A DNA stretch of 54,999 nt from Sulfuricurvum sp. (GTDB taxonomy: Bacteria > Campylobacterota > Campylobacteria > Campylobacterales > Sulfurimonadaceae): assembly GCF_028712165.1 (NCBI RefSeq), contig NZ_JAQTQR010000007.1, positions 1 to 54,999 of the forward strand, given 5' to 3'. Every line of letters starts with the position of its first letter. The stretch's first letter is position 1. The notes beneath the pieces were generated by a model. That model saw only the letters and a list, made by a program, of their open reading frames with translations, searched no databases and was not told the origin of the DNA. Positions 10,295 to 25,422 of the stretch are shown here, in pieces. A program made the translations under genes and the position numbers.

Positions 10295-10532
10295 CAATTT
10301 GTAAAAAAATGTTATTTATTAAGTAAAATTTGCTACCGTATCATATAAATTATAAAGAGTTTGTATGCATACTGAAATCCCATTTTCCATCTCTGAACTC
10401 TCTTCGATGAAGCGTTATCCTGAAAAACTTTATTATAGAGGCGATTTAGGGCTTCTCCAGCGCCCCAAGATTTCGATTGTGGGCACCCGTCGACCAAACC
10501 CCTATACACGCGCGATTACGTTTGAATTGTCC

Positions 10533-10537
10533 AAAAA
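10533..10537. repeat. Left copy of 5-bp target-site duplication (AAAAA)
   Basis: AAAAA precedes the element's TGTCA terminus. The matching copy is at 24814-24818. Five bp is the duplication length made by Tn7-family transposases. Removing the element plus one copy restores the codons TCC AAA AAA CTG of dprA, as expected from the intact homologue on the element. Confidence 0.9.
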
Positions 10538-10590
10538 TGTCATTTCCAACAAAAAACGAGAATGTACATTTATTAGTGATAATGGAGGAG
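10538..10590 (+). repeat. Transposon left end with TnsB-like binding sites
   Basis: After the terminal TGTCATTTCC come two candidate TnsB sites: AACGAGAATGTACATTTAT (10555-10573) and AGTGATAATGGAGG (10577-10590). They resemble the right-end repeats (AATGAGAATAAATATACA and AATGATAATAAATTACA read inward). The first site starts about 18 bases in from the terminus, as at the right end. The left end seems to have fewer sites than the right, the asymmetry known for Tn7. The second site merges with the Shine-Dalgarno of the tnsE-like gene. Confidence 0.65.
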
Positions 10591-10596
10591 TTAGTC

Positions 10597-12285
10597 ATGG
10601 CTGATCTTCTTCAACACAAACCTGTCTTTTTTGATCAATATAGAAATCAGCCCTTAGAATTTATAGTTGTAACTGATATCAATATGATTGAGACACCCTA
10701 CAACTACAAGGGTATTTTTAAAAATATTAAAACAGGTAAGTTTCATTCATATGAGCTTGCCCCTGAAATGATGCGTTACAAGTATAAAATAGGTCATATC
10801 TACACAAATGGTGAGCATGTAGGGGAAAACAAGAGTCTGTTAAAAGGAGAGTTCCATATCAATGGCAACTATGTGCAACCACTTGTGCAAATCTCAACAG
10901 TGCTCACCGAAAATGATGTTGCGTTGATTAGCTATGGCGAAGTGAAAAAATACTATTTACGGCAGTTTGCACATGTCGAAATGCACGATGATTATACGTT
11001 GATTATTCCTTGCTATGCGATAGCTAATCGATTCTATTTTCTATCATCAGCATTTAAAAATGCAGCGATGCGAGGAGTGCTTGCTGACCTTTACTATGAA
11101 GGATCTTTTAGTACTGAATCTAAAGAAACTGGATCGTTATTAGCAAGATTTCATGCGAAAAAGAAAGCGAATAAAAAAGACATTCCATTTATTGCACGCT
11201 TTGCAGGAAGTACTTATGCTCAGTCGAGATTTAAGTATCTCACGTCACAAAGAAACAATAATAAGCCGTTTCAGCAAATTAGAGCACAGTTCCCAGTCAA
11301 AAATTCATTTGATATTTATGCTTCGTATGTATGTGTAGGAAATGATGAACGTGGACTACCTAAGTATGTTGTGTTAAATATCCACTCCGATAATTCATAT
11401 TTAGGATTTGAAGAGTTGCATTATAAGCAATATAGTGAAAAGCAAGATCCAAAAACAGTTGAACCGGAAAAATTGAATATTAAAAAGAATTCTAAAAAAC
11501 GGATTAAAAAGGTCAAAGCAACTCGGGATAATAAAATCTATGAAGGTACACCCTCCAATGATTATTTGCTTTATACGTTGTACACGCGAAGTGATGACGA
11601 ATATTATAAGAACAATATTAAAGTCATTAGTGAAACGATTTATCAGGGTAATGAAGCTGAAATTGTTTACACAAAAAGTGATAAGAAAATTGGTAATTCA
11701 CTAAAAGATGCTTCGAATGATGGTGATGAAAACCTTGGGCAAGCTCATGTTGTAAATGGAGAACTTGAAGAGAGTAGTGTAGAAAACGAAATTTTTAATC
11801 TTCAGGATTTTTATCAGTTTTATGAAGGGCTCTTGACGTATGCCGGTGTCGAAGGTGAACAATTAGTAGGACCATTTGAAATAAAAGCTGTATACAACAA
11901 AAATAGAAAAAGTATAAAAAGTAAGGCAATCTTATATGGAAAACAAGATCAGTCGAGAAAATTCTTATTCGGTCTTTTAAATTACAACAATAAATATGTT
12001 TATATTATTGAAATTGAGCATGATAGAGCTTGGGGTCCATCAACATGGATGTTTATTGCTCAAGAATCAGCAGAAATTTATACTTCTGACGAAATGAAAG
12101 ATTTGATTGAATATTACATTGAGAATGAGCCAACATACAAGCAATTTGAAGAGTATGTTTTTAATCAGTATAGATTAGTATTTGATCATAAGGATCATAA
12201 AAAAGGAGATGTGGGAGATGAAGAAATTGAGGGATGGTGTGAACTTGTGATTGCAAGAATTTTAAAGAATAATCATGGGAGATAG
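10597..12285 (+). CDS. Divergent TnsE-like transposition protein
   Basis: This 562-residue protein has length and landmarks like Tn7 TnsE (538 residues). IIPCYAIANRFYFLSSAF (136-153) corresponds to the Tn7 segment HIPQLELARSLFLINSYF, the region linked to sliding-clamp binding. After a variable charged middle (about 285-440), the C-terminus HKKGDVGDEEIEGW (about 534-547) parallels HPKGLGELQVSREDMEGW of Tn7 TnsE. The C-terminal domain of Tn7 TnsE binds DNA and steers insertion to replicating DNA and conjugal plasmids. ATG 10597 is preferred because GGAGGAG (10584-10590) sits 6 bases upstream; the open frame extends into the dprA stub. Unusually, it lies at the end opposite tnsABC. The match is by eye, not by profile search. 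Confidence 0.7.
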   Translation: MADLLQHKPVFFDQYRNQPLEFIVVTDINMIETPYNYKGIFKNIKTGKFHSYELAPEMMRYKYKIGHIYTNGEHVGENKSLLKGEFHINGNYVQPLVQISTVLTENDVALISYGEVKKYYLRQFAHVEMHDDYTLIIPCYAIANRFYFLSSAFKNAAMRGVLADLYYEGSFSTESKETGSLLARFHAKKKANKKDIPFIARFAGSTYAQSRFKYLTSQRNNNKPFQQIRAQFPVKNSFDIYASYVCVGNDERGLPKYVVLNIHSDNSYLGFEELHYKQYSEKQDPKTVEPEKLNIKKNSKKRIKKVKATRDNKIYEGTPSNDYLLYTLYTRSDDEYYKNNIKVISETIYQGNEAEIVYTKSDKKIGNSLKDASNDGDENLGQAHVVNGELEESSVENEIFNLQDFYQFYEGLLTYAGVEGEQLVGPFEIKAVYNKNRKSIKSKAILYGKQDQSRKFLFGLLNYNNKYVYIIEIEHDRAWGPSTWMFIAQESAEIYTSDEMKDLIEYYIENEPTYKQFEEYVFNQYRLVFDHKDHKKGDVGDEEIEGWCELVIARILKNNHGR

Positions 12286-12322
12286 ACTATAATATTTATT
12301 TACACATTTAAGAAGGATTTCA

Positions 12323-12646
12323 ATGAAAAATTATATAGCGATGTTGGATTATATTGAAGAAAATAATTTGAAAATGGATAGTTTTGGGAATTGCCAATTT
12401 CAAGCACTTGTAAAGTACAAAAGCTCAACTAATATTTTCTCTGAGATGACAGAAGTAAAATTTATACGAAATGGATATGATGATGGAAAAATAACAGTTT
12501 TTGAAAAAGGTGAATTAAAATCAGAAAATTGTTACCTCGAATATTCGGCTAGGTTTCAGAACTATAAATTTTCCCAAAAGGAGTTTATAATCGAAGGTTT
12601 TTCAAAGAAAGGGGTAAATTATACTGTTGAAATTACAAAAATATAA
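12323..12646 (+). CDS. Small cargo protein of unknown function
   Basis: This 107-residue soluble protein follows the tnsE-like gene by 37 bases, with AAGGA upstream of ATG 12323. It is rich in beta-prone, charged segments (LEYSARFQNYKFSQKEFIIEGF) and has no signal peptide, membrane helix or motif that I recognise. Its placement suggests cotranscription with the tnsE-like gene, but a link to transposition is only a guess. Composition is as AT-rich as the rest of the cargo. Confidence 0.6.
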   Translation: MKNYIAMLDYIEENNLKMDSFGNCQFQALVKYKSSTNIFSEMTEVKFIRNGYDDGKITVFEKGELKSENCYLEYSARFQNYKFSQKEFIIEGFSKKGVNYTVEITKI

Positions 12647-12711
12647 TCTTGATCAAGGAGAAGTTCAAATAGTTCCATCAGTTTAAAATTGAGTTCTCAT
12701 TATCAGTACTT

Positions 12712-12736
12712 CCTATAGAATATGAAATTCTATAGG
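12712..12736. terminator. Hairpin between convergent cargo genes
   Basis: A perfect 10-bp stem (CCTATAGAAT / ATTCTATAGG) with loop ATGAA lies between the ends of the 107-residue gene (+) and the 93-residue gene (-). Flanking CAGT/ACTG bases could extend it. Its position fits a bidirectional terminator, although T runs are weak. Confidence 0.55.
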
Positions 12737-12751
12737 ACTGACATGAAATTA

Positions 12752-13033
12752 CTAACACTCCTCAATGTCAAAGTTATATTTTTCCAGCAAATCTTTAGCG
12801 ATTGTATCTATTTGAGATGTTTCTGGAACTTGTGGTTCGTTAAGATAACTATGAAGATAAGTAATAGTATTTTCATCTGAGACATAATTTTCTGGATCAT
12901 TTCTCAAAATTTCCTTTTCTTTAACTAGACTCACTGCATCAGTTCTTGGAAGTCCTTTGTAAACAATATAGTATGCAGCCTCTTTGGCACGTTCCATATT
13001 GTTATATTCTTTAATTTTTTCATCGTAGTGCAT
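12752..13033 (-). CDS. Small acidic helical protein of unknown function
   Basis: This 93-residue protein begins MHYDEKIKEYNNMERAKEAAYYIVYKGLPRTDAVSLV and is predicted mostly helical. The central segment (AAYYIVYKGLPRTDAVSLVKEKE) has the feel of a small helix-turn-helix, and the C-terminus is acidic. I do not recognise a family. ATG 13033 was chosen over an ATG 30 bases upstream because GGGGAT precedes it at good spacing. It is convergent with the previous gene. An antitoxin or regulator role is possible, but no partner toxin gene is next to it. Confidence 0.55.
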   Translation of the reverse strand: MHYDEKIKEYNNMERAKEAAYYIVYKGLPRTDAVSLVKEKEILRNDPENYVSDENTITYLHSYLNEPQVPETSQIDTIAKDLLEKYNFDIEEC

Positions 13034-13645
13034 TGTATCCCCTTTTATTTTGTTATGTAGCAATCGTCGACTGTTACGGAAATTACTTTTAAGTGTTTAA
13101 TAAATCAGATGATTTTAATAAACAGTGATAATTTTTACTAAGATTAAATTGTGCTATTCGCACCACATAAGTAGAAGAATAATATAGGTCTTTATTTTAA
13201 CCGTCAGCATGACTTTGTAATCAGCATATAAATCATACCGTATTTGAAATTAAAACAGTGCTATAAATTTATCTGTAAATAAAGATTGGTAACATTTAAA
13301 ATAGACCGATCTCTTTTGATTAATAAAGGCGATGCGTGTATGAAGGAGGGGAGAATTTTTCATCTTCATGATGGAGCGATTCCTGCCTATAAAGAGAAAG
13401 ATTACGGCTGAGATCTCTATTAATAGATATTAGGTATGAGATTAATAATTTCTATTTATATAATTAAAATTGCAGTTAAATTTATCATTTTGGTTAAGAC
13501 AATATATATCGATTCGGTATATAGTATATATACTAAAATGATATATAGTTTTTTGATTTTCCACACAAAAAATTGACAATTAGACATAAAATTCTTTCAT
13601 ATTTTGATTATGGGTATACTCTAAAAAATACGTTATAGGTTTATC
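13034..13645. other. AT-rich cargo spacer
   Basis: This 612-bp stretch holds no convincing gene. It contains one short open fragment (13283-13411, listed separately). A run of TATATA-like inverted motifs lies at 13504-13552. TTGACA at 13573 and TATACT at 13615-13620 lie upstream of the element's dprA and may form its promoter region, but they are not at standard mutual spacing. The base composition is very AT-rich, typical of cargo junction debris. Confidence 0.5.
13283..13411 (+). pseudogene. Possible C-terminal gene remnant
   Basis: An open stretch of 42 codons reads in part LLINKGDACMKEGRIFHLHD and ends at TGA 13409-13411. The residues look protein-like and the local GC content is higher than in the surroundings. 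There is no start codon with a ribosome site at its beginning. It may be the 3' end of a gene whose remainder was lost. I cannot name a family. Confidence 0.2.
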
Positions 13646-14419
13646 ATGAATACGATTGAATATCATCTTTCCGAACTTGACGCGATGAAAAAATATCCCG
13701 AAAAATTGTATTACAAAGGTAATCTTGATTTATTAGACCGGCGAAAAGTATCCATAATCGGCAGTCGGAAACCAAATCAATATGCTCAACAGATGACACA
13801 TCGTTTAGCAAGTGAATTATCAAGGGTTGGGGTATGTATTGTAAGTGGTGGAGCAATGGGTGTAGACGCGATAGCGCATCGAGGAGCGGGAAATGATAGT
13901 ACGATCGCAGTTTTGCCTTGTGGGATCGATTTACGCTATCCAGCGGTCAATAAATCATTATTGGAAAGTATTGAGAATAGTGGCCTAACCATGAGTCAGT
14001 TTGATCCGGGATTTCAAGCAACTAACTGGAGCTTTGTAGTACGTAATGAGGTTGTTGTGGCACTGGGAGACGTATTGATCGTTACACAGGCTGATATTGA
14101 TAGCGGGAGCATGCGCAGTGTCGAATTCGCATTAGAGATGGGTAAGAAAATTTTTGTTCTACCGCATCGGATTGGTGAGAGTGAAGGAACTAATAGATTA
14201 TTAGCTGATGGAAAAGCCGAGGCTATTTATGACATCGATACTTTTGTAGGAAAATTCGGTATGGTAAATTCTGAGATTGATAAAAGTGACCCATTTATGT
14301 TGTTTTGCGCCACACGACCAACTTATGAGGAAGCGGTAGTGAAATTTGGGGATCGAGTTTTTGAGGCGGAGCTCAGTGGAAAAATCATTATTAAAAATAG
14401 TAGTATTGAATTAATCTGA
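13646..14419 (+). CDS. dprA: Transposon-borne DNA processing protein DprA (complete)
   Basis: This complete 257-residue DprA has the same short architecture as the host gene, with no N-terminal SAM domain. The Rossmann core has KVSIIGSRKPN, SGGAMGVDAIAHRGAG, GIDLRYPAVN and WSFVVRNEVVVALGD, followed by DSGSMRSVEFALEMGK. The C-terminus has the winged-helix-like tail PTYEEAVVKFGDRVFEAELSG. It aligns without gaps to the reconstructed host DprA around the insertion point (NQYAQQMTHRLASELSRVG versus NPYTRAITFELSKKLAYSG) but is clearly diverged. Because the host gene is split by this same element, this copy is likely the cell's only full DprA. It lacks the A6 tract at the position used as target in the host gene. 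Confidence 0.95.
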   Translation: MNTIEYHLSELDAMKKYPEKLYYKGNLDLLDRRKVSIIGSRKPNQYAQQMTHRLASELSRVGVCIVSGGAMGVDAIAHRGAGNDSTIAVLPCGIDLRYPAVNKSLLESIENSGLTMSQFDPGFQATNWSFVVRNEVVVALGDVLIVTQADIDSGSMRSVEFALEMGKKIFVLPHRIGESEGTNRLLADGKAEAIYDIDTFVGKFGMVNSEIDKSDPFMLFCATRPTYEEAVVKFGDRVFEAELSGKIIIKNSSIELI

Positions 14420-14490
14420 CACGAAGTTTCTAACACTCCCATTCATCCCGTGTATTTTTTAGGGAAATTGGAACTCTTTTCCCCCTGTTA

Positions 14491-16491
14491 TTAGTCTAAA
14501 AATGAATCAACTCGTTCTTCAAGCCACGTCATGCTGCCACGAAAACTTTGCATATCATAATCTTTGACATTTTTTGCATGGGCATCTGATCTTCCAATGG
14601 AGTTTAATATGGTCATGCGTGATTTGAATTTTTCAACATCAGTTTCAAAAATATTTTGGAAACAATCGATCCAATTTAAACGTATGATTTCAATTAAGTT
14701 ACTTAAATATATATCGTTTTTATCAGGATCAAAAAGTTCTTTTAATAAGAGTGTTTTATTTTTAGGATTAGTTATCTTCAATACTTTATTCTTTGCTTCA
14801 GTATCTCCAAATCTTGCTTTGAGCTGTTGTATCACTACTTTTCTAAGTTTGATTTCTATAGCGTTGCGTCTACTACCAATTTCAGTCCTTTTTTCTTCAT
14901 CTGTCAAATTTTGTTTCTGGTATTGATTCTTTTTTTCTAAATATTTTTTCAAAATATCCATTTTGAAATCATAACCGATTAAAGATTTTTCTAGAATTGA
15001 ATAACCTAAAAGGTGTTCAGTATATGTTGGATCATTTTTTGCAAAATAATTAAATTCATCTATGTCATTACGCGCGAGATATGTTAACATCATATATTCA
15101 TCATTGTAATATTCTTCCAATACGCCAATAATCATTTCACAATATTTATGCCCGATTGACTCATTGAAACGTTGGGTGTAATCTGCATATATTGAACGAT
15201 CAACTTTTGTAAAATTTTGTTTTCGTAATTCTGACCAAATATATGAACATGCTTGTCGAATTAAAAAAGGATGACCGCCGTATTCACGAGTTAGATACGT
15301 ATAAGTTTCTTCTTCAAAAGTTATACCCATATAATTAGCTAGCGTTTTTACCATTACTTTTGTTTGATCGACTTGAAAACTTTCTATGTAGCGACATTTA
15401 ATTTGATGGTAAAGTGGATTATCAACTTTATTGATGAATGGTGTTTCAATACATTTAGGATTAGTTCCTGCTATCAGAAAAGTTATAGGATTGTCCAATT
15501 TTTGATAAAGACCACGCAAAACTTGCCAAAATTTTATATAATCATCACCTGTTTTCCAGTATTGTGAAATTGATATGCCAAAAGTTAGATGCTCAATTTC
15601 ATCAAAAATTAATAAAATTTTTGCATTATTTTTATTGATTTTTCTGTTTAATTTCGAGATATCATTTTCAAATTGCATTGCAGCATTTTCTTCAGTATAT
15701 TTTTCAATGTCGATCTGCATTTTTATAGTGTGCTCTTTATTTATAGTGTGAATAATATAGTAAAGAGCACGCCACCAACGGTTTAAATGCAGCTTTTGGC
15801 AGTCTATAATAGTTGCATACGCATTTCTTTTTTTCAAAATGCGTTTAATTGAAAATAGTATAGAAGTTTTACCACTTCTTCTTAGTCCAAATATTCCAGC
15901 ATTTGTATTGCTTATATGGGCATCTACTAATTCATGGCATATATTTTCTCTAGCAAAAAAATAAGTATCCTTTCTGAGGGGCGATTCAAAATCAAATAAA
16001 TTTCTTTCAAAAAAGTATTTTTTAATTCTTTCAATAAAAAAATTGCTATTTTGTTGTGATAAAAGTTCATGGTATGTAAATGGGATTATGACACTAGATT
16101 CGTTGTTACTTTGTATAAGAGTATCGATTTTAGAAATAAAATCAATATCATTACTCGCTATGAATGTACATATTTTGTCTAATCTAAATCCTGAATTTTC
16201 ATTTAGAATATTTTCTATTGCATCGATTGTTCGTGGTTCAAAATTTTCAAATCCACTTAAAAGAAAGATCATTTCATTTTCAATACCAAATACTTTGCTT
16301 TTTAAATCTGGAAACTTAATGAATGCGTAGTTGTAAGTGCTTGAACCAATTCGAATATATTTTAGTGTTGAAATATAAAATTCTTGACCAAGTTGATTTA
16401 AGATTTTATATTCATCAGGTGAACAAAACTCTTTCATATTTTCTTTAGCGTGTGGGTGTATACCCGAAGATACGGTAATAAGGCTAATCAT
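14491..16491 (-). CDS. Cargo AAA-family ATPase with Swt1/HEPN-like C-terminus (putative defence)
   Basis: This 666-residue protein is convergent with the element's dprA. Residues 1-170 form an N-terminal domain that I do not recognise. The ATPase core has Walker A GLRRSGKTS (202-210), Walker B LLIFDEIEH (293-301) and a sensor-like FLIAGTNP (338-345), followed by a winged-helix-like part (GGHPFLIRQACSYIW). This is the Orc1/Cdc6-like ATPase layout common in STAND-type immune proteins. The C-terminal 130 residues are helical and end with a segment holding GRSDAHAK, reminiscent of HEPN or Swt1-like domains. Defence is inferred from architecture and location. All ATPase motifs are intact. Confidence 0.75.
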   Translation of the reverse strand: MISLITVSSGIHPHAKENMKEFCSPDEYKILNQLGQEFYISTLKYIRIGSSTYNYAFIKFPDLKSKVFGIENEMIFLLSGFENFEPRTIDAIENILNENSGFRLDKICTFIASNDIDFISKIDTLIQSNNESSVIIPFTYHELLSQQNSNFFIERIKKYFFERNLFDFESPLRKDTYFFARENICHELVDAHISNTNAGIFGLRRSGKTSILFSIKRILKKRNAYATIIDCQKLHLNRWWRALYYIIHTINKEHTIKMQIDIEKYTEENAAMQFENDISKLNRKINKNNAKILLIFDEIEHLTFGISISQYWKTGDDYIKFWQVLRGLYQKLDNPITFLIAGTNPKCIETPFINKVDNPLYHQIKCRYIESFQVDQTKVMVKTLANYMGITFEEETYTYLTREYGGHPFLIRQACSYIWSELRKQNFTKVDRSIYADYTQRFNESIGHKYCEMIIGVLEEYYNDEYMMLTYLARNDIDEFNYFAKNDPTYTEHLLGYSILEKSLIGYDFKMDILKKYLEKKNQYQKQNLTDEEKRTEIGSRRNAIEIKLRKVVIQQLKARFGDTEAKNKVLKITNPKNKTLLLKELFDPDKNDIYLSNLIEIIRLNWIDCFQNIFETDVEKFKSRMTILNSIGRSDAHAKNVKDYDMQSFRGSMTWLEERVDSFLD

Positions 16492-16651
16492 AAATCACTC
16501 TTTTTATAAATGTCAAAAATTATACAACAACATTTAAATATTTTAAATTTTTTAAAATCGGTTGGTGAATCATCATTGTAAGTATCAGTCACATAAAAAT
16601 TTCGACTTCAATTAGGTGTTTTTCCAAGTTCAATGTATCTTTTCCAAATTT

Positions 16652-16690
16652 TTGATCATCCCTTTATAGTGTATTGTGCGAGATGATCAA
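16652..16690. repeat. Inverted repeat abutting the dprA remnant
   Basis: TTGATCATC (16652-16660) and GATGATCAA (16682-16690) are perfect 9-bp inverted arms with a 21-base spacer. The right arm ends two bases before the homology to dprA begins at 16693. It could be a hairpin, an operator for the GHKL gene, or the scar of a recombination event that joined foreign DNA to the dprA 3' end. Confidence 0.5.
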
Positions 16691-16692
16691 GT

Positions 16693-16788
16693 TACGAAGA
16701 AGCGGTAGTAAAATTTGGAGATCGAGTTTTTGAGACAGAACTGATGGGATTAGTTCATGTAAATAATGGAGTCATTAATCTCGAATAA
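16693..16788 (+). pseudogene. dprA: dprA 3'-end remnant (third dprA copy)
   Basis: In frame from 16693 the sequence encodes YEEAVVKFGDRVFETELMG and twelve further residues, ending at TAA 16786-16788. This matches the C-terminal tail of the element's complete DprA (YEEAVVKFGDRVFEAELSG), with about four fifths of bases identical over the first 57 bp by eye. The tail after that is different from both other copies (GLVHVNNGVINLE). There is no start codon and nothing of the Rossmann domain. Together with the end of the full copy (to 14419) it brackets the AAA ATPase gene as direct repeats. Confidence 0.85.
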
Positions 16789-16912
16789 AATATGAAATAA
16801 TGCAATATATTAGAAGTAATTTATCAAAATCTTATTTATCATATATTTTAGTATAAAAACATAAAGCTAATTCGCAATATAATCAGTTATAACAAGATTA
16901 GGAGTGTTTATT

Positions 16913-18547
16913 GTGGCAAATGTTAAGTTTAATGTTGGTGATAATGCAGTAATTCAATTAGGTGAAAATTTATACAAAAACATATATGGAGTTTTAATAG
17001 AGTATATTACAAATTCATATGATGCTGATGCTTCTATTGTTGAAATCAAGATTGACAGAACCAAAAGGTTAATAATGATTTCTGACGATGGCACCGGTAT
17101 GACACACGCCGAACTACATAGTGTTTTTTTAGATGTTGGACTTAACAGAAGGAGACAACTCAATCTAACACCAAAGCGTAGGCTAGTAACTGGTAGAAAA
17201 GGATTTGGAAAATTAGCATGTTTTGGTTTGTTTGAGAGTTTTATTGTAGAAACTGTAAAAAATAATCTATTTAGTAAATTAGAAATCACTACTGGAGAAA
17301 ACGAGTTTGGTGAATTTAATTATACTGCTAACATAAATGATAAAGCAAAAAAAGTTAACCAAGAGAATGGAACTAAAATTTATTTGATTAATAATACCCA
17401 AGAGATTACAGATAATAAATCATTAGCTGAGTCAATTGCTAAGCGAATTAATCTTATGTATGATGCTAATCAATTTGATCGAGATGGTTTTAAAATAAAG
17501 TTAGAAGATATTACTATTGATAAAACATATAGAAATAGTATAGTTTTGAATACAGATATTAAGTTTAAATACAATATCCCTGAAGATTTAAAAAGATTTA
17601 CAAAAGACAAAGAGCTTATTAAGTATATAGAAGAAAATAAAATCAATGGTGTTGTAATAGCACGTGAGAAGACCGTTCGTATAAAAGAAAATAAAGGTAT
17701 TGTATTATTTGCTAGAGGTAAATTGTGTCAAGAAGCAACTTATTTAGATATTAATCCATCCAATAACTATGGATATGCACATTTATATGGAGAATTTAAT
17801 GTTGATTTTATTGACAATGAGAGTAAAGATAATATTGGTACCGATAGAACAGCTTTAAAAGAAACAGAAACAACGTTAAAATTATTTGAAGTTATTGAAA
17901 GTTTAATGAAAGCGTATGCAAGATTATATGATGAAGATGAACGTGCAAGAAAAGAAAATGCAATTGAAGAGTTTAAAGGTGACGATAAATATAAAGTAAT
18001 TACAAAAACTATTGAATCTATTAAAGACTTAAGTTTAAGAAAAGAACTATTTAAACTTTTCCAAATAAAAATAAAAAATAGTGTAACAGAAAATATTATT
18101 GATGTGGAAGACATAGAAAACTTTGAAAAAGTTGCAAACTCAATTATGTCATATAATCTACAGTCAGAACAAATTAGCAAGGATGAATCTAAAGACAATG
18201 TGATCACTTCATACGATTACTTGATTGCATATTTACGAAATAAATACACATACACTGGTAATGATGGTGTTGATATTATGAACTTTTTATATGGACAAAA
18301 CAACCAAAATGTAGAATATTCAGCTTTATCACTAAGAACAACACACACTGTAAAAGATGACATAAAAAAATCGATGAGAGAACTTGGTAATGCGATTGTG
18401 AACTTACGAAATTCTATGATGCATACAAATGATAGAGAATGTATTAATACAAATATTTCAATTGAAAATTCAAAAAGATTTTTGGTAATGGTGGATCTTT
18501 TTATTGAATTAGATATTTTGTTTTTTATTCCTATTCCTATTCCATAA
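16913..18547 (+). CDS. GHKL (MORC-like) ATPase with HEPN-like C-terminus
   Basis: This 544-residue protein has an N-terminal GHKL ATPase fold: N-box EYITNSYDADA (30-40), G1 DDGTGM (58-63) and G2 GRKGFGK (94-100). This is the layout of MORC, MutL and Hsp90-type ATPases. The C-terminal part is helical, and LRNSMMHTND near residue 505 fits the R-N-x-x-x-H pattern of HEPN nucleases. GTG 16913 is preferred since GGAG sits 8 bases upstream; a second GTG nine bases earlier overlaps that site. It converges with a C5-methyltransferase gene, with 39 bases of overlap. Such ATPase-methylase neighbours suggest a restriction-type defence, which is an inference. Confidence 0.8.
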   Translation: MANVKFNVGDNAVIQLGENLYKNIYGVLIEYITNSYDADASIVEIKIDRTKRLIMISDDGTGMTHAELHSVFLDVGLNRRRQLNLTPKRRLVTGRKGFGKLACFGLFESFIVETVKNNLFSKLEITTGENEFGEFNYTANINDKAKKVNQENGTKIYLINNTQEITDNKSLAESIAKRINLMYDANQFDRDGFKIKLEDITIDKTYRNSIVLNTDIKFKYNIPEDLKRFTKDKELIKYIEENKINGVVIAREKTVRIKENKGIVLFARGKLCQEATYLDINPSNNYGYAHLYGEFNVDFIDNESKDNIGTDRTALKETETTLKLFEVIESLMKAYARLYDEDERARKENAIEEFKGDDKYKVITKTIESIKDLSLRKELFKLFQIKIKNSVTENIIDVEDIENFEKVANSIMSYNLQSEQISKDESKDNVITSYDYLIAYLRNKYTYTGNDGVDIMNFLYGQNNQNVEYSALSLRTTHTVKDDIKKSMRELGNAIVNLRNSMMHTNDRECINTNISIENSKRFLVMVDLFIELDILFFIPIPIP

Positions 18548-19576
18548 TTGTGAAGTAAGAGCATAAACAATGGTTTCACCAACGGCTTTTGACAAATTAA
18601 CTGGTACAGCATTGCCAATTTGTTTTGCTATTTCTGTTTCACTGCCAAAAAAATTATAATTTGCTGGAAATGATTGAATGAGAGCTCCTTCCCTAAGAGA
18701 TAAAGCTCTATCTTCTTCAGGATGACCAAATCTTCCACTGTAGTATTGATTGAATTTTGTTGTAATTGTTGAGCTTAGACTGTTCCATGCTAATCTGCCA
18801 TAATTATCTAAAAATACTTCTTTTCTTGCGTGACATGGTACTTTCAACTCATTACTCCAAACAGAACGTAAACCACCATTTTTAGGTGTTGCTTTTATTC
18901 TTTTTAAATTAATTTCATTAAGTGTTTTAGATTTATGTAAAGGATCAGTTTCTGAGGGCTGGTCGTGATTGATAGACTCAAGATGGTAAATTACATCTTT
19001 TAGTGTAATAGGTGTTTTGTAATGAAGATTTTCAAAGGAAAGGTTTATCTTTTTTAATCTTGTAGCAATAAGAAATAATCTTTTTCGATTCTGTGCTACA
19101 GAAAAATTTTTGGCATTTAAGACTTTGTATTCAAGTTTATAGCCATTAAGCTCAAGCATTTCAATAAATTTTGCAAAAAAAGGGTTCTCTTCATTCAATC
19201 TACTAACATTTTCCATTAATACAAAGTGAGGCCTAACTCCTTTAATGATTCTTCTAAATTCATCAAGAAGTGTTTTTCTATCATCGTCTTGTTTTTTTCT
19301 AGTATTTATCATACTGTATGGCTGACAAGGTGCACATCCTGCAATCATTGTAAAATCGTTTTTTGAAATATTACATAAAAAGAGTTCTTTGATTTCTTTT
19401 GCAGTTATTTCAACAATACTTTTATTAATAAATTTTGCTTTGTTATTATGCTCATATGTTTCTTTGCATGAACTTTCTATATCAACACCGGCGAATACAT
19501 CAATTCCAGATAACCTTAATCCATGAGTTAAACCACCTGCACCACAAAAAAAATCTATAGCTTTAATTCTTTTCAT
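18509..19576 (-). CDS. DNA (cytosine-5)-methyltransferase
   Basis: This complete 355-residue m5C methyltransferase has motif I DFFCGAGGLTHGL (8-20), motif IV GCAPCQPYS with the catalytic Cys84, motif VI ENV (122-124) and motif VIII QNRKRLF (162-168). A target-recognition region (about 190-270) precedes motif IX around LREGALIQSFP and motif X KQIGNAVPVNLSKAVG. It transfers a methyl group from S-adenosylmethionine to cytosine C5. The start ATG 19576 has GGAG upstream and overlaps the DUF6471 gene by 14 bases. No separate restriction endonuclease gene is recognisable beside it. The recognition sequence cannot be read from the protein. Confidence 0.96.
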   Translation of the reverse strand: MKRIKAIDFFCGAGGLTHGLRLSGIDVFAGVDIESSCKETYEHNNKAKFINKSIVEITAKEIKELFLCNISKNDFTMIAGCAPCQPYSMINTRKKQDDDRKTLLDEFRRIIKGVRPHFVLMENVSRLNEENPFFAKFIEMLELNGYKLEYKVLNAKNFSVAQNRKRLFLIATRLKKINLSFENLHYKTPITLKDVIYHLESINHDQPSETDPLHKSKTLNEINLKRIKATPKNGGLRSVWSNELKVPCHARKEVFLDNYGRLAWNSLSSTITTKFNQYYSGRFGHPEEDRALSLREGALIQSFPANYNFFGSETEIAKQIGNAVPVNLSKAVGETIVYALTSQLWNRNRNKKQNI

Positions 19577-19823
19577 TATTAACTCCTATTTCTATATTAT
19601 TTGTATCAAAATTGATATGCATTACATCAAGGACATACATGCATTGAAAGAAAAAATTTGCACTAAAATTTGCTCTAGATATTTTGTTGTTAAAAGATTG
19701 TTCATTTAGTGAGATATTAAATGTTTTCTTTAGAAGTTCACAAATCTTTTTTGTGGTTACTCTTCTTTCTCTCATCACAGCCCTCAGTTTATTGCTAGCG
19801 TAGTCATTTAGCTTAACTTTCAT
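19563..19823 (-). CDS. DUF6471 helix-turn-helix-like regulator
   Basis: This 86-residue protein reads LNDYASNKLRAVMRERRVTTKKICELLK and then FNNKISRANFSANFFFQCM. It fits the DUF6471 pattern, a small Xre-like domain with 'KIsRg.Fs..FflQ' in its second half. Such proteins are typically encoded just upstream of methyltransferases. The overlap with the methyltransferase start points to one transcript, so a control (C-protein) role in setting methyltransferase levels is plausible. The 17-bp palindrome 45 bases upstream is a candidate binding site. The family call is from memory of its consensus. Confidence 0.7.
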   Translation of the reverse strand: MKVKLNDYASNKLRAVMRERRVTTKKICELLKKTFNISLNEQSFNNKISRANFSANFFFQCMYVLDVMHINFDTNNIEIGVNNEKN

Positions 19824-19867
19824 TACAAAATATCGACCTTAATATTTAGTTTATCTATTGTATCTAT

Positions 19868-19909
19868 ATTAGTATTATTATACTCTTAAAAAAGTATAAT
19901 AATACTAAT
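19868..19909. promoter_or_regulatory. Perfect 17-bp palindrome upstream of the methyltransferase operon
   Basis: ATTAGTATTATTATACT (19868-19884) and AGTATAATAATACTAAT (19893-19909) are perfect inverted arms around the 8-base spacer CTTAAAAA. The site lies between the tniQ stop (20041) and the DUF6471 start (19823), both on the minus strand. It has almost no GC and no T run after it, so an operator for the DUF6471 protein, or a weak terminator for tniQ, is more likely than a strong intrinsic terminator. Confidence 0.6.
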
Positions 19910-19930
19910 TAATGAGTATAAAATGTACAT
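19904..19930 (+). repeat. Internal TnsB-like site
   Basis: CTAATTAATGAGTATAAAAT (19905-19924) is followed by GTACAT. Read inward from the true right terminus, the element has CTAATTAATGAGAATAAATATACAT, and the left end has CGAGAATGTACAT. The similarity suggests a TnsB-binding site at the boundary between cargo and the tns operon. Its orientation is that of a left end. No TGTCA terminus is evident 12 bases further out, so it may be a decayed former end or a regulatory site. Confidence 0.5.
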
Positions 19931-20040
19931 ATATTTTCAGTGAGAAACATCAACGTAGTTATGATAAAAAAAGATTTTATTGATTGAGATTAATTTACTA
20001 TATAAGAAAATATAGCTTGTTGGTGAGTTTATAAAAATAC

Positions 20041-21180
20041 TTACAAAGGTGTTTGGAATATATTGCTACCAAGCTTATTATGATAAAAGTCACATTGAAA
20101 TAATTTTTTCAAAATTATTTTATTGACGATAATCCCTTGGATTGTTAGCCATTTAGCTGCATTTTGGATCTCTTGTAATGTTAATAAGTCAGATGTAAAA
20201 CACGTTTGTGCTGCCACTTTATCCAAAAGTTTTTCATACCAAAACGCTCTTTTTTTCAACTCTTTCGTAAGTAGCCAATGAGTGAGAGCATTCGCTTTTA
20301 CAAAGCGATCAAAATTCCTTGGATAGTGGTTAAACAACTCTATAATCGCTGACAAGATAATAACTTGCTGTGGGATACTAAGTTCACGAATGACAGGTTG
20401 GGTTTTGGTAAAACGGGTTCTTTTGGCGATATTCTTGATCTTTGCTTGATGATCGATAGACTCATTCTTTTTGTAGACAAGTATCAATTTGGCAAGTTGT
20501 ACAAAGACCTCAAAAAATAAAAATGAGTAGATTGGTATTTTATTGAAAACTATGTAGCCTCTTTTGCGAATTGACTGTATTCTGTGCATTCGTTTGAACG
20601 CTAAATCAAATGTTTTCGGTACTGTCAACTTTCGTGCCTTTCGCAGATCGAATCCGCATTTGTGACAAAATACATACGGCAAAGTATTGCGATACATATG
20701 GGTAATTTTGAGCAATGTATTGCATGAAGGACAGCGATCATAAAGATAGCAGTGATGTTTGAAGCAAACCGTCGAGAATAGAACTTTCCAACTTTTGCGA
20801 TAATATGGAAAGTGATCCTCTCGTAGACATACTGGACAGAAACGCTGAGGAACGATAAAGGTATTTAGGCCATCAGGTATAATTGATTCTTGAAGATAAC
20901 TCTCATAGGATTTGAGACTCATCTGATATATGGTTTCAAAGCTAAGAGCACTTTTTTGTTCGATGATATGTAGGATAGCATCCGATACCGAGGCATCAAA
21001 GTTAGGTCTCCAGTTGAATTTTCCGGTAGAGAAGTGCATATTCATAAATGTTTTGGGATGAGTTAAATGAGCGTATGCCGTTCGTGCAAGCCATGAGCTG
21101 AGGATTTCGTCCGGGAGTGGTTTGGGAATAAGCAAAAATCGCGAAGCAGTAACCGCCGGATTTTTGACTTTTTTGATCAT
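20041..21180 (-). CDS. TniQ/TnsD-family target-selection protein
   Basis: This 379-residue protein starts with LPDEILSSWLAR (22-33), the TniQ signature. A zinc-binding region follows with CPVC (115-118), CFKHHC (139-144), CPSC (150-153) and CHKC (172-175). The C-terminal half (180-379) is helical and could bind DNA. TniQ/TnsD proteins choose the target site and recruit TnsC. Its length lies between minimal TniQ and Tn7 TnsD (508 residues). It overlaps tnsC by four bases. Whether it recognises dprA is unknown, but it is the best candidate for the insertion choice seen here. Confidence 0.9.
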   Translation of the reverse strand: MIKKVKNPAVTASRFLLIPKPLPDEILSSWLARTAYAHLTHPKTFMNMHFSTGKFNWRPNFDASVSDAILHIIEQKSALSFETIYQMSLKSYESYLQESIIPDGLNTFIVPQRFCPVCLREDHFPYYRKSWKVLFSTVCFKHHCYLYDRCPSCNTLLKITHMYRNTLPYVFCHKCGFDLRKARKLTVPKTFDLAFKRMHRIQSIRKRGYIVFNKIPIYSFLFFEVFVQLAKLILVYKKNESIDHQAKIKNIAKRTRFTKTQPVIRELSIPQQVIILSAIIELFNHYPRNFDRFVKANALTHWLLTKELKKRAFWYEKLLDKVAAQTCFTSDLLTLQEIQNAAKWLTIQGIIVNKIILKKLFQCDFYHNKLGSNIFQTPL

Positions 21181-22112
21181 AACTGTTCGAGCATCGCGTT
21201 TTTCGAACGTTGATGTGGAGAGACGTAGTTGCAGGCGCGTATCTCGGTCAGGGTGATACGTTCGGATTTTGTTTCAATGGCGATCTTGGCAGCTTGGCGT
21301 AACAGATCGAACATATTGCCTATATAGCCGTCACTGAGTTCCAAAATCTCATCGGCCACGGCTTCATCGGTTAGTTTTGACTCATGTTTGAGCGGAAGGC
21401 GACTCGCATAAGTTGCTAAAAGACTTCCGAATTCATCATCGAATTGCCATTTAGGAAGATACATTGGCATAAAACGGCTCTCGATCTGAGGATCGGTATT
21501 TATTGCACTGAGAGCAGCTTTAGTGCCGGCAAGTACGATCGGGATCTGTAGCGCATTGGAGAGACTTTTGATGGCATTTAAAACCTGCTTTTGTCTGGCA
21601 ATAGAACCACTCAGGATATTATGTATTTCATCGATCACCAGCATCTCAACTTCGAGAAGTTTCAAATAGTATTGTACGAGGTATTGTTTTCGTACAACGG
21701 TTTCGGTCTCTTTATAGGGGACAGAAAGATTAGAGAGTATTTGGCTATAGAGTCGTGATTCGCTAGGTTCATTCGGTGCATCAACATGGACGACCGGAAT
21801 TCCGGCACCGGTATGGGTGTCGAAATAATCATTCGGTAGATTTGCCGGGCGTTCAATATTGTAGTCATAGGGTGGATGAAGTTCTGCAAATCGACTAATG
21901 ATCGAACTTTTTCCATTGTTTCCTTCACCCACAATAAGAAGACTGGTGATGCGAGGAAAGTTTTTTCCGTATTTGAAAAGTTCTTCGAGCTTGTCAAGCA
22001 TTAGTTTTGCTCTTGGGTAATTAATCCACCGGTATTGAAAAATAAATGCCATACGCTCTTCATCGGAGCTTTCAAGGAGATACTGATACTCTTTGGCCAA
22101 TAGATTATTCAT
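21177..22112 (-). CDS. tnsC: TnsC/TniB-family AAA+ ATPase, transposition regulator
   Basis: This 311-residue AAA+ ATPase has Walker A VGEGNNGKSS (61-70), Walker B LVIDEIH (158-164) and sensor 1 IVLAGT (192-197). It bridges the target selector (TniQ, possibly TnsE) and the transposase, and in Tn7-family elements it imposes target immunity. It is shorter than Tn7 TnsC (555 residues) and closer to TniB-like compact forms. The start ATG overlaps the tnsB stop, and its own stop overlaps tniQ, so tnsABC-tniQ is one translationally coupled operon. Confidence 0.93.
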   Translation of the reverse strand: MNNLLAKEYQYLLESSDEERMAFIFQYRWINYPRAKLMLDKLEELFKYGKNFPRITSLLIVGEGNNGKSSIISRFAELHPPYDYNIERPANLPNDYFDTHTGAGIPVVHVDAPNEPSESRLYSQILSNLSVPYKETETVVRKQYLVQYYLKLLEVEMLVIDEIHNILSGSIARQKQVLNAIKSLSNALQIPIVLAGTKAALSAINTDPQIESRFMPMYLPKWQFDDEFGSLLATYASRLPLKHESKLTDEAVADEILELSDGYIGNMFDLLRQAAKIAIETKSERITLTEIRACNYVSPHQRSKNAMLEQL

Positions 22113-23977
22113 GAATCTTTTCCCTCAGCTTTATATTCAACGACATCAAAAATCTCGATTTTTCCAAAGCTTCTTTTTCGAACCGGTTTTTCATTGGAAT
22201 CTTTCGTAAGTACATCTTCTGAAATAGCAGAAGGCTTTTTGACTGATGATGGTGGTGTCTGTTTTCGTAAACTATTAGTCGCTCGTTTGGCACTTTTTTC
22301 GATCTCTTCGAGGTTATGGTAGGCTCTAAAAATATCGTTTTCATCATAGTTTGTTTTGCGCTGATCTGCTAAAAGTCGTTTGATGGCTTGTAGCTCCCAG
22401 ATATTCATCGCCGGTGCACTCATGCGACGGTAAGGTACATCGAGATAGATATTTAGATTGGGGTCATAAACATGTATGCGACTGATATCCATGGGATCAC
22501 GTTTAATTTTTAGTTTGAGTTTTTGATCATTGGCATCTTTTCGATTCACAAAACGACGCAACGTATCGTCGTAATAAGTAATATCCTCTAAAGTGATTCC
22601 ATTGCGCTGTACGGTACGATAAAAAGTAGGAAGAAGCGATATGCGAATATGTTCATCATCTTCGATCATAGCGGGGAGAATACCGACTTGTGGATTGTTT
22701 TCATCTTCTTCGATACCGAATTGGTATCGTTGTAAAGGGGTGGTTTCAATTCCATGGTGATAGGTTTTATGATAAATATTGACAATGTACTGTGTCAACC
22801 ATTTTTCGAGTTCTTTGATAGTCAGAGAAGCTTGTTTTTCTGAATCATAGCTTCCACGTTCTTTGACATTGGAGAATGTTGCTCCCGGAAGATTATGTAT
22901 TTCTTTGTTAATTGTTAAGAAAATTCGTTCTATATTCCCCCCGAATTGAGGTCGTGCAACGGGGCGTTTTTCGATAGAGATACCGTATTCTTCACAGACA
23001 CGTTGAACTTCGCTCCCAACTAGCTCTGCACCATTATCGCTATGCAAAACACGTGGTGTACCATAGATGGGCCACTCGCCGTCGATATGAAGTTTTTTGA
23101 GATAACGTTCTTTTGGAAGAAAACATTGATAGAGGCATTGTCCAACGTTGAAAAAGCCAGGTCCTTGGAAAGAGAGGAAAAAGCCTGCAACCATTCGGCT
23201 ATAGACATCGATAGCCAGTGTGAGATAGGGTCTGCCGATCGGAAGTCGGCGAAGATCATCCACAAGGATGATATCAAGTGGTGTATGATCTATCTGATAG
23301 ACATCAAGAGGATAGTTACCATTTTTGAATTCGCCTGAAAAGTCACCATATTGAGATAAAGCGGTTTTGTAATTTTCTCGACGTTTGAGTAAATACATTG
23401 GATCGATCTCTTTGATCCGATTGCGAACGGTATTTTCACTAGGCACAGGGGTATTTTCATGAATACAAGCCTGCTTAATTTTCATATAGGTGCGTTTGAA
23501 AGAATGTTTTTGTTTTTTGAGATAGTAACTCTCAAGAAGCTCGTTAATGATCTTATTTGTATCCTTGGGAAGACGTTTTTTCTTGGGACCTCGCTTTTTA
23601 GTTTGCGGTATCAGCGCACTTAACGTCGGGTTAGACTCAAAAGCTGATAACCATCGATAAACGGTAGATTGTCCGACTTTGTGGGTAGATGCAATTTTTT
23701 GAATATCTGTGGCACTACGTTTAGTCCCTATCAGCGGTTTGATAATCTCCAACCTTTGTTTGGCTGTGTCCCATTCAAGCTCAGTGTGATCATTTAAATC
23801 GATAACGGGTGAGTCATTTTGAGGTTTCGTAGAGAGTTCAGTAATGGAAACGGATGCAACATTGCCATACTTTGCATGTTTGATATTGACTTTAGTGAGC
23901 CCATCGGCTCCAATTACCCTATACTCCTCATCGTCCCAATAGACGGTTGCACCATAACTAAAGTCTACTTTTGCCAT
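22109..23977 (-). CDS. tnsB: TnsB-family DDE transposase
   Basis: This 622-residue transposase cuts and joins the 3' ends of the element. A helix-turn-helix region (about 75-112, KVGQSTVYRWLSAF) precedes the DDE catalytic core. The triad is D230 in QIDHT, D314 in HSDNG and E350 in GGNIER, with the standard 35-residue second spacing. A beta-barrel and a basic tail follow. ATG 23977 is preferred because AAGGATTC lies upstream and it gives a 13-base overlap with tnsA; an earlier in-frame ATG at 24061 would lie 97 bases inside tnsA. The catalytic residues are intact. Confidence 0.95.
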   Translation of the reverse strand: MAKVDFSYGATVYWDDEEYRVIGADGLTKVNIKHAKYGNVASVSITELSTKPQNDSPVIDLNDHTELEWDTAKQRLEIIKPLIGTKRSATDIQKIASTHKVGQSTVYRWLSAFESNPTLSALIPQTKKRGPKKKRLPKDTNKIINELLESYYLKKQKHSFKRTYMKIKQACIHENTPVPSENTVRNRIKEIDPMYLLKRRENYKTALSQYGDFSGEFKNGNYPLDVYQIDHTPLDIILVDDLRRLPIGRPYLTLAIDVYSRMVAGFFLSFQGPGFFNVGQCLYQCFLPKERYLKKLHIDGEWPIYGTPRVLHSDNGAELVGSEVQRVCEEYGISIEKRPVARPQFGGNIERIFLTINKEIHNLPGATFSNVKERGSYDSEKQASLTIKELEKWLTQYIVNIYHKTYHHGIETTPLQRYQFGIEEDENNPQVGILPAMIEDDEHIRISLLPTFYRTVQRNGITLEDITYYDDTLRRFVNRKDANDQKLKLKIKRDPMDISRIHVYDPNLNIYLDVPYRRMSAPAMNIWELQAIKRLLADQRKTNYDENDIFRAYHNLEEIEKSAKRATNSLRKQTPPSSVKKPSAISEDVLTKDSNEKPVRKRSFGKIEIFDVVEYKAEGKDS

Positions 23978-24612
23978 AAAGAATCCTTTATAAGGGGGGA
24001 GTTCATTGAAAGTTTTTGGGTCAAGTCGATTATATTTGGATTTAATGCAATGAAATGCCATAGATAGGGGATAATTTTTCCATGACTTGAGCTATCGGTA
24101 TTTATCGCATATAAAAAATCGATAAGGGATATAGGGTCAGAAAGATTTTCATAGACGCTTTTAAAGCGTTCGTCAAATTTTTCTGTATTTTTCAAAAATG
24201 CGAATTTGTATAGGAACTTTAGATTTTGTAAATATATTGGATCAAATGTTGTATCGGTGAAAATCATGAAATTGTATTTGCCTTCACTCTCAATTTGATG
24301 GGTAATACAAGAAAGCTTTTGTCGTAATTCTTCATCACTATCAAGTTCATTTTTGTATTTAACTTCATAAACTGTCGAAGTGTTGTGATAATGAACGAGG
24401 GCATCTGGAGTATAAAAACGGTTGGAACCATCACATTCATACCGAAGTTTAAAAGGTTGCTCTTCGAATAAAACCACGGATGAATCGAATTCAAGAGTTA
24501 GAAAAAAATCATGTTCAAGTGTTGATTCAAATGCAAGTTGTTTCTTGTTCTTGCGACTCATAAAGTATCCGGTAACAGAGCGATAGCTCTTTTTAATTTT
24601 TCTGACTGCCAT
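23965..24612 (-). CDS. tnsA: TnsA-family endonuclease
   Basis: This 215-residue protein has a restriction-endonuclease-like active site: E33 in FESTLEHDFF, D70 in FYTPDALV, and E83/K85 in VYEVKYK (Tn7 TnsA has E63, D114, Q130, K132). TnsA cuts the 5' strands at the ends, which makes transposition cut-and-paste rather than replicative. The C-terminal region (about 130-215) would bind TnsC. It is the first gene of the operon, 201 bases from the right terminus. No Shine-Dalgarno precedes ATG 24612, which fits leaderless translation from the promoter noted upstream. Confidence 0.92.
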   Translation of the reverse strand: MAVRKIKKSYRSVTGYFMSRKNKKQLAFESTLEHDFFLTLEFDSSVVLFEEQPFKLRYECDGSNRFYTPDALVHYHNTSTVYEVKYKNELDSDEELRQKLSCITHQIESEGKYNFMIFTDTTFDPIYLQNLKFLYKFAFLKNTEKFDERFKSVYENLSDPISLIDFLYAINTDSSSHGKIIPYLWHFIALNPNIIDLTQKLSMNSPLIKDSLWQK

Positions 24613-24618
24613 GAGAAA

Positions 24619-24647
24619 ATATTACAACTTTTATAAAAAATTTGCAA
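24619..24647 (-). promoter_or_regulatory. Putative promoter of the tnsABC-tniQ operon
   Basis: On the minus strand TTGCAA (24647-24642) and TAATAT (24624-24619) are separated by exactly 17 bases. Transcription would begin very near the tnsA ATG, giving a leaderless message. The innermost TnsB-like repeat (24651-24674) lies directly upstream, so TnsB binding could repress this promoter, as is known for Tn7. Confidence 0.45.
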
Positions 24648-24650
24648 TAG

Positions 24651-24813
24651 TAATAAATTATCATTAATTAGTAGAAAATGTAATTTATTATCATTTTTAC
24701 TTGTATTTATTGTCATTATATATTTCCTCTATTTTCTCATTAAATAGGCACTTTTAAGTAGTTTTACGAGTATAATCATGTATATTTATTCTCATTAATT
24801 AGTGAGTATGACA
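24651..24813 (-). repeat. Transposon right end with five TnsB-like sites
   Basis: Read on the plus strand, five related copies of a TTATTNTCATTA word lie at about 24651-24674, 24682-24700, 24705-24722, 24731-24747 and 24785-24804. The end is TATGACA (24813). The inverted terminus TGTCATACTC matches the left TGTCATTTCC in its first six bases. Dense sites at the right and few at the left reproduce the polarity of Tn7 ends. The gap between the last two copies is larger than between the others. Confidence 0.8.
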
Positions 24814-24818
24814 AAAAA
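24814..24818. repeat. Right copy of 5-bp target-site duplication (AAAAA)
   Basis: AAAAA follows the terminal TGACA and matches 10533-10537. One more A (24819) belongs to the host gene, which had a run of six A at codons AAA AAA. Confidence 0.9.
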
Positions 24819-25422
24819 ACTGGCATATTCCGGGATGGTTATTATCAGCGGTGCTGCTGCCGGAGTTGACGCAATAGCCCATCAGGGTGCAGGGACAGAA
24901 AATACCATTGCTGTTCTGCCTAGCGGTATTGATGTCCGTTATCCGCATGCAAATAGAGAGCTTATCGGAGCAATTGAGAAACAGGGGCTTACCATGACCC
25001 AGTTTGAACCCGGTTTTATGGCTCGTGAGTGGAGCTTTGTCGTACGTAATGAGATTGTTGTTGCACTGGGAGATGTGCTGGTTGTGACAGAAGCCGATAT
25101 CGGCAGCGGAAGTATGCGAAGTGTCGAGTACGCATTAGAGATGGGAAAACCCATTTATGTCCTTCCTCATCGACTACGTGAAAGTACAGCTACACGTCAG
25201 CTTTTGGCAGAGGGAAAAGCTACTGCAATCGATGACCTTGACCTCTTTGTTACACGTATGAGCCAAAAAGCTAAAAATGCGATCGAAGATACACCGTTCA
25301 TCGCATATTGCAGAAACAATCCGACCTATGATGAAGTGGTTGTAAAATTTCCGAGTAAGATTTTTGAAGCGGAACTATCCGGTTTGATAGAAGTGCGTAA
25401 TGGCAGAGTGAGTGTCGTGTAG
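24814..25422 (+). pseudogene. dprA: dprA 3' fragment, truncated by the transposon
   Basis: This segment encodes the last 202 residues of the host DprA, from KKLAYSGMV through SGAAAGVDAIAHQGAG, GIDVRYPHAN, WSFVVRNEIVVALGD and the C-terminal tail ending GRVSVV. It continues exactly from the stub ending FELS at 10532. The transposon's last bases provide in-frame GTG 24802 and ATG 24808 codons, so a 204-residue product could be made from the element's right end. It would lack the first Rossmann strand and loop, so normal function is unlikely. No further frameshift or stop is present, which points to a recent insertion. Confidence 0.93.

Follow-up and report, generated by a model that had tools for sequence, protein, structure and literature searches.

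The window, which is the whole 54,999-nt stretch of Sulfuricurvum sp. DNA analysed here, contains a Tn7-like element inserted in the host dprA gene and carrying as cargo a GHKL ATPase gene, a convergent C5-cytosine (m5C) DNA methyltransferase gene and a small DUF6471 gene. The first two are read, with a probability of about one half, as a two-component immune module of the paraMORC kind, resembling a restriction-modification (R-M) system, in which a methylation-gated GHKL sensor would control a HEPN-like RNase effector. This reading draws on the gene content, the motifs, the convergent pairing, the exchange with a PD-(D/E)xK version of the partner, and carriage on both Tn7-like and phage-like vehicles. 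An earlier note had suggested that the module might be of a new type, but the general idea is already published: R-M systems with paraMORC proteins have been proposed (PMC2292703), and so have R-M loci in which paraMORC is fused to HEPN (PMC3710099). What is new here is the family of C-termini to which the GHKL protein belongs (type A), its association with a methyltransferase at five of five contiguous loci, and a single methyltransferase clade that occurs with both kinds of effector.

Table 1. Features of the module and of the element that carries it, in window coordinates.
Feature	Coordinates	Strand	Evidence or remark
Target-site duplication AAAAA, left copy	10533..10537	.	junction
Tn7-like element, 14,276 bp, ends TGTCAT...ATGACA	10538..24813	.	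junctions; host dprA frame open after joining flanks
TnsE-like protein, left end of element	10597..12285	+	homologues in L044 and L046 match TnsE_C
GHKL (paraMORC/BbrUII-like) ATPase, HEPN-like C-terminus, 544 aa	16913..18547	+	alternative upstream GTG 16904
GHKL ATP-binding region (ExxxNxxDA / DDGTGM / GRKGFGK / GT)	16955..17473	+	bounds approximate
HEPN-like C-terminal domain, predicted all-helical, residues ~433-547	18200..18544	+	profiles, model
R-N-S-M-M-H (Rx4H) motif, residues 502-507	18407..18424	+	R, N and H identical across 5 family members
m5C DNA methyltransferase of 355 aa with a complete motif set	18509..19576	-	Pfam DNA_methylase 6e-66
Target-recognition region of methyltransferase, between motifs VIII and IX	18788..19075	-	sequence
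DUF6471 protein of 86 aa, probably regulating methyltransferase transcription	19563..19823	-	PF20075 2.5e-15
TniQ/TnsD target selector	20041..21180	-	PF06527 2.7e-23
TnsC/TniB ATPase	21177..22112	-	PF05621 5.8e-61
TnsB transposase	22109..24061	-	
TnsA	23965..24612	-	PF08722, PF08721
Target-site duplication AAAAA, right copy	24814..24818	.	junction

The module and its Tn7-like carrier

All three genes described in the earlier note were present and intact. The GHKL open reading frame more likely starts at GTG 16913 than at GTG 16904, because AGGAG lies 8 nt upstream of the former; residue numbers nevertheless follow the 547-aa form from GTG 16904. The four GHKL motifs were intact (ExxxNxxDA at 33-41, DDGTGM at 61, GRKGFGK at 97 and NGT at 155) and the protein, which the earlier note had called a MORC-like ATPase, matched HATPase_c_3 in Pfam (1e-17). 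MORC proteins are eukaryotic GHKL ATPases that silence methylated DNA, and belong to the same radiation. A PDB sequence search with the full protein returned only MORC2 (E 0.65), and the full-length AlphaFold model was too poor to use (pLDDT 56). The methyltransferase was likewise as complete as had been claimed, with all m5C motifs in place (PCQ, ENV, QNRKR, GNAVP); it faces the GHKL gene in convergent orientation, the 3′ ends overlapping by 39 nt, and its start is overlapped by 14 nt by the DUF6471 gene.

The further claim that no restriction endonuclease is recognisable stood only in part: no DNase domain was found, but residues 9-390 of the GHKL protein matched the BbrUII/HgiDII restriction-enzyme model of NCBIfam (NF050001; 5e-46), a partial match whose 157.5 bits fall short of the curated cut-off of 550 bits for the full length, and PADLOC called the protein REase_II. 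A putative S5-fold region falls within this match, but the confidence of the model at residues 245-331 was too low to judge the fold. Together with the methyltransferase pairing, the match supports a restriction-type module in which the GHKL ATPase may serve as a gated switch, as the earlier note had proposed. It would also suit a conventional type II enzyme of the BbrUII/HgiDII family whose own C-terminal nuclease, though diverged, cuts the DNA, as would the convergent methyltransferase, M.HgiDII being a characterised m5C enzyme for GTCGAC (PMC5867850). Such an enzyme is improbable here: of the 547 residues the match covers none beyond ~390, whereas in REase-type neighbours it extends to the end of the model and D...ExK residues are seen, and the C-terminus is helical by prediction, without the sheet of the PD-(D/E)xK fold. 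The DUF4263 nuclease domain (Shedu) likewise had no Pfam match in the protein.

Carriage by a mobile element, also suggested earlier, was borne out by a bounded insertion (Table 1) with TnsA, TnsB, TnsC, TniQ, a 5-bp duplication and inverted TGT ends, as expected of a Tn7-like element. The junctions read TCCAAAAA / TGTCAT...ATGACA / AAAAAACTGG, and joining the flanks gave an open DprA frame (...ELSKKLAYSG...). The dprA genes of relatives aligned with the window in discontinuous blocks, with host codons 1-~59 falling at 10365-10541 and the remainder from 24808; the element splits host dprA at codon ~59 into parts at 10365-10537 and 24814-25422. The TnsE_C domain was matched by homologues of the left-end protein (L044, 4.7e-4; L046, 1.8e-6, above the Pfam cut-off) and not by the window copy itself. 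The element also carries a full-length dprA of its own (13646-14419), ~58-60% identical to host-type DprA, and the degraded 3′ end of a third dprA is found at 16648-16782; dprA may have received several insertions in succession, the element bringing a replacement copy with it. We rejected the left dprA as a chimera of a host 5′ and an element 3′ part, since its N-terminus shows no greater similarity to host dprA than its C-terminus does, and the genuine 5′ part of the host gene is at 10365-10537. On the minus strand of the same element (14491-16491), a 666-aa P-loop AAA/STAND-like ATPase with sub-threshold matches to ATPase_2, AAA_35 and nSTAND1 is possible further defence cargo.

The C-terminal domain of the GHKL protein

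The R-N-x-x-x-H segment picked out in the earlier note is present as R502-N-xxx-H507, in accord with the Rx4-6H motif of HEPN RNases, and its R, N and H were invariant in five of five family members although the C-terminal domains of the others are only 43-50% identical to that of the window, which suggests catalysis. The assignment of the C-terminus as a HEPN-like effector drew support from weak profile matches and from the HEPN structures recovered in fold comparison. When type A members were scanned singly, three matched Hypoth_Ymh (1.3e-4, 0.002 and 0.003), four of five matched Apea-HEPN (best 0.014) and one matched DUF4145 (0.034), all below the gathering scores; none reached the gathering score of any Pfam HEPN family, the best attaining 22.3 bits against 25 for PF09509, and the window protein itself had no PF09509 match. 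In sister GHKL proteins of the same order (type C), an unambiguous Ymh HEPN domain occupies the same position (1e-22), but hhalign aligned the RNxxxH region of the type A C-termini with Ymh C-termini at a probability of only 7%, from shallow alignments.

Structure prediction had been named earlier as a check. The AlphaFold model of the C-terminus (four sequences) was helical (pLDDT 68), and in VIA its best match was 1wwp (Z 7.5), a HEPN structure (PMC3710099), with Csm6 (Z 6.4) and chains of the MntA-HepT complex (Z 6.2) also recovered and unrelated helical bundles among them; chance matches between helical bundles can reach such Z scores. Foldseek with the same model, however, returned nothing significant from the PDB or from viral models, and a PDB sequence search with the type A C-terminus returned nothing meaningful. 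HEPN identity, as judged from profiles and model, is likely rather than proven, and we infer a HEPN fold with moderate confidence. By its sequence the type A C-terminus is a separate Campylobacterota/phage family, first described here, with an invariant RNxxxH and a weak likeness to HEPN in profile and fold. Strong hits to its profile were confined to 4 of 397 Campylobacterota genomes, G494 and one viral contig; the survey covered Campylobacterota genomes, phages, plasmids and viral contigs, and the range of the family may be wider.

Relatives, apparent partner exchange and vehicles

Relatives include one of the same family in a Sulfurimonas MAG (G083, L058) and others in Arcobacter and Helicobacter; single-sequence scans of the genome contigs and viral contigs found none, and an alignment query found L058-L061. 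Type A, one of the types into which relatives from the order fall, is defined by the RNxxxH C-terminus and comprises the window, L044 (which ends before the motif at a contig end), L045, L046, L047 and the phage-like contig L061. Type B proteins match the BbrUII model along their length and show D...ExK residues by inspection (L051, L052, L053 and L057, with L002 and L003 more distant), type C proteins carry the Ymh HEPN domain with the strong Hypoth_Ymh match (L049, L054 and L055), and L056 and L050 have further C-termini with R...H motifs.

The earlier expectation that the three genes co-occur held for two of them. A convergent methyltransferase accompanied the GHKL gene at all five contiguous type A loci, whose vehicles are transposons, a phage-like contig and chromosomes, and at a sixth locus (G083), which stops at a contig edge, the methyltransferase lies at another contig edge of its genome. 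The DUF6471 gene, on the other hand, is replaced beside the methyltransferase by an unrelated HTH-like protein in L045, L046 and L061 (type A) and in L053 (type B). DUF6471 was found in 12 of 150 genomes of the order, and among seven other DUF6471 loci examined a recognised DNA methyltransferase adjoined in five and an unassigned protein with an xPPY motif in one more; the DUF6471 (PF20075) genes L083-L090 mostly adjoin DNA methyltransferases of several classes. Because of these replacements and of the methyltransferases found beside it elsewhere, DUF6471 is more likely a generic R-M regulator than part of the GHKL-methyltransferase system, and it was rejected as a core component.

In the Arcobacter BM504 MAG (L046, 10078-11098), the methyltransferase gene is interrupted by two premature stops, TAA codons where the equivalent residue is Glu, next to a GHKL-HEPN gene that is intact, and the TnsB and TniQ open reading frames are shortened too; the stops may be decay or a MAG error. 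This broken gene fits poorly with a system that kills as soon as methylation disappears, and it would favour a reading of the two genes as independent cargo merely side by side, specifically an orphan methyltransferase and an abortive-infection gene. The convergent pairing on such different vehicles argues against this, as does the GHKL partner found in all eight fully compared loci of the same methyltransferase clade, and independent cargo is improbable.

That one clade (99/99) held the methyltransferases of eight loci, four of type A and four of type B, at 67-84% identity and with the types mixed, the closest pair being one of each type (L045 and L053, 84%, joined at 83/91). Over their N-terminal 345 residues, in contrast, the GHKL proteins fell into separate clades by type, with identities of 29-36% between types and 56-77% within. 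The mixed methyltransferase clade, set against GHKL groups only ~33% identical, therefore looks like an effector swap; its simplest reading would be that the partner gene was replaced beside a conserved methyltransferase, with HEPN in place of DNase. The usual DNA-cutting part of the sensor appears to have given way to a domain of a usually RNA-cutting kind, and if the partner was replaced beside a conserved methyltransferase, the same mark must be respected by both partners. In its target-recognition stretch the window methyltransferase was 58-69% identical to methyltransferases paired with either effector type (65-69% to three of four type B loci, 68-69% to type A).

Some relatives have nuclease genes nearby. 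By sequence inspection, an apparent Vsr-type gene adjoins two type C loci (L049 and L055), and in Helicobacter (L047, 7037-7567) an Mrr_cat-like nuclease of 176 aa, whose Pfam match (1.3e-4) is above the cut-off, is encoded directly upstream of the GHKL-HEPN gene, so that a partner DNase is possible there; this protein had no homologue in the window or the other compared loci. These neighbours, and the separate nucleases with which MutL acts (PMC2292703), favour DNA restriction by recruitment, in which the GHKL part would be a MutL-like sensor or clamp, the HEPN-like domain a non-catalytic binding or dimerisation module, and a separate nuclease, of Vsr or Mrr type in some loci and unlinked in others, would cut the DNA. 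We consider this unlikely: no nuclease gene was seen beside the window module or the phage-borne one (L061), and the invariance of R, N and H points to catalysis. A dense defence cluster, including an NgoPII-type restriction enzyme and two ThsB/TIR proteins, lies beside the type A module in L045 (3800-6331).

GHKL/methyltransferase R-M modules are recurrent Tn7-like cargo, lying beside tns genes in two other Campylobacterota genomes (L045 and L046) and in the Acinetobacter plasmid pOXA23_010062 (L003). On the viral contig L061 (5992-9045), a type A module consisting of GHKL-HEPN, methyltransferase and HTH-like protein is flanked by genes resembling those for phage terminase and portal, and in the P2-like phage PhiR44_1 (L002) a BbrUII-type version annotated ParaMORC3 adjoins the portal gene.

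Effectors, DNase or HEPN-like, have seemingly been swapped on GHKL sensors beside the same methyltransferase lineage. If so, the swap would provide a clean test of whether a check of DNA methylation can trigger an RNA-cleaving abortive response, and of how GHKL clamps transmit their signal. As a natural exchange it makes the RNase-restriction proposal directly testable; no published test of the 2013 paraMORC-HEPN proposal was found in the literature covered here.

Proposed action and comparison with known systems

Under the preferred reading, of a methylation-gated GHKL sensor with an RNase effector, the methyltransferase would mark self DNA at a specific site, and the GHKL-S5 part would act as an ATP-driven clamp, detecting unmethylated and hence foreign DNA together with whatever reads that site. 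Once engaged, the clamp would activate its own C-terminal HEPN-like domain, a putative metal-independent RNase with an R-N-xxx-H active site that would cut cellular or phage RNA, so that infection would be stopped by shutdown and not by DNA cutting; the small regulator would set the timing of methyltransferase expression upon entry of the element into a new cell. We infer in this way the RNase activity, the gating of an ATP-dependent clamp by unmethylated sites, the activation of the HEPN-like domain, abortive protection and the defence role of the module. Only tentatively do we go further and propose an R-M system with an RNase as its sole effector, in which an unmethylated site read by the GHKL clamp would be the trigger, RNA cleavage would replace DNA cleavage, and HEPN and PD-(D/E)xK partners would have been exchanged beside one methyltransferase lineage.

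Iyer et al. (2008) described such GHKL-S5 proteins of R-M loci as paraMORCs (PMC2292703), and the closest characterised system to the module is HgiDII (m5C, GTCGAC; PMC5867850). The BbrUII/HgiDII type II R-M systems (paraMORC3; NF050001) share the GHKL N-terminal region with its putative S5 part, the adjacent m5C methyltransferase and carriage by phages and Tn7-like elements (L002, L003), but the window C-terminus is predicted to be helical and HEPN-like rather than PD-(D/E)xK, and its protein matches their model far below the curated cut-off. In VcSduA, a GHKL-Shedu protein with demonstrated anti-phage activity, a GHKL domain likewise controls a C-terminal effector in one chain; that effector, however, is a DUF4263 PD-(D/E)xK domain with no match in the window protein (PMC12137116). 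The PrrC and RloC anticodon nucleases are similar as ATPase-gated HEPN RNases linked to restriction, a functional analogy only, since their ATPase is of the ABC and not the GHKL kind and PrrC is tied to type I R-M. The HEPN survey of Anantharaman et al. (2013) described paraMORC proteins of R-M neighbourhoods with a Ymh-HEPN domain fused at the C-terminus and proposed that they act in the manner of PrrC/RloC (PMC3710099), which counts for the RNase reading. These proteins resemble the type A module in that a GHKL ATPase ends in a HEPN-like domain and DNA methyltransferase genes lie next to it; in type A, however, the domain falls below the Ymh cut-off, the GHKL part forms a separate clade, there is no adjacent Vsr gene, and the methyltransferase clade is also used with REase-type partners.
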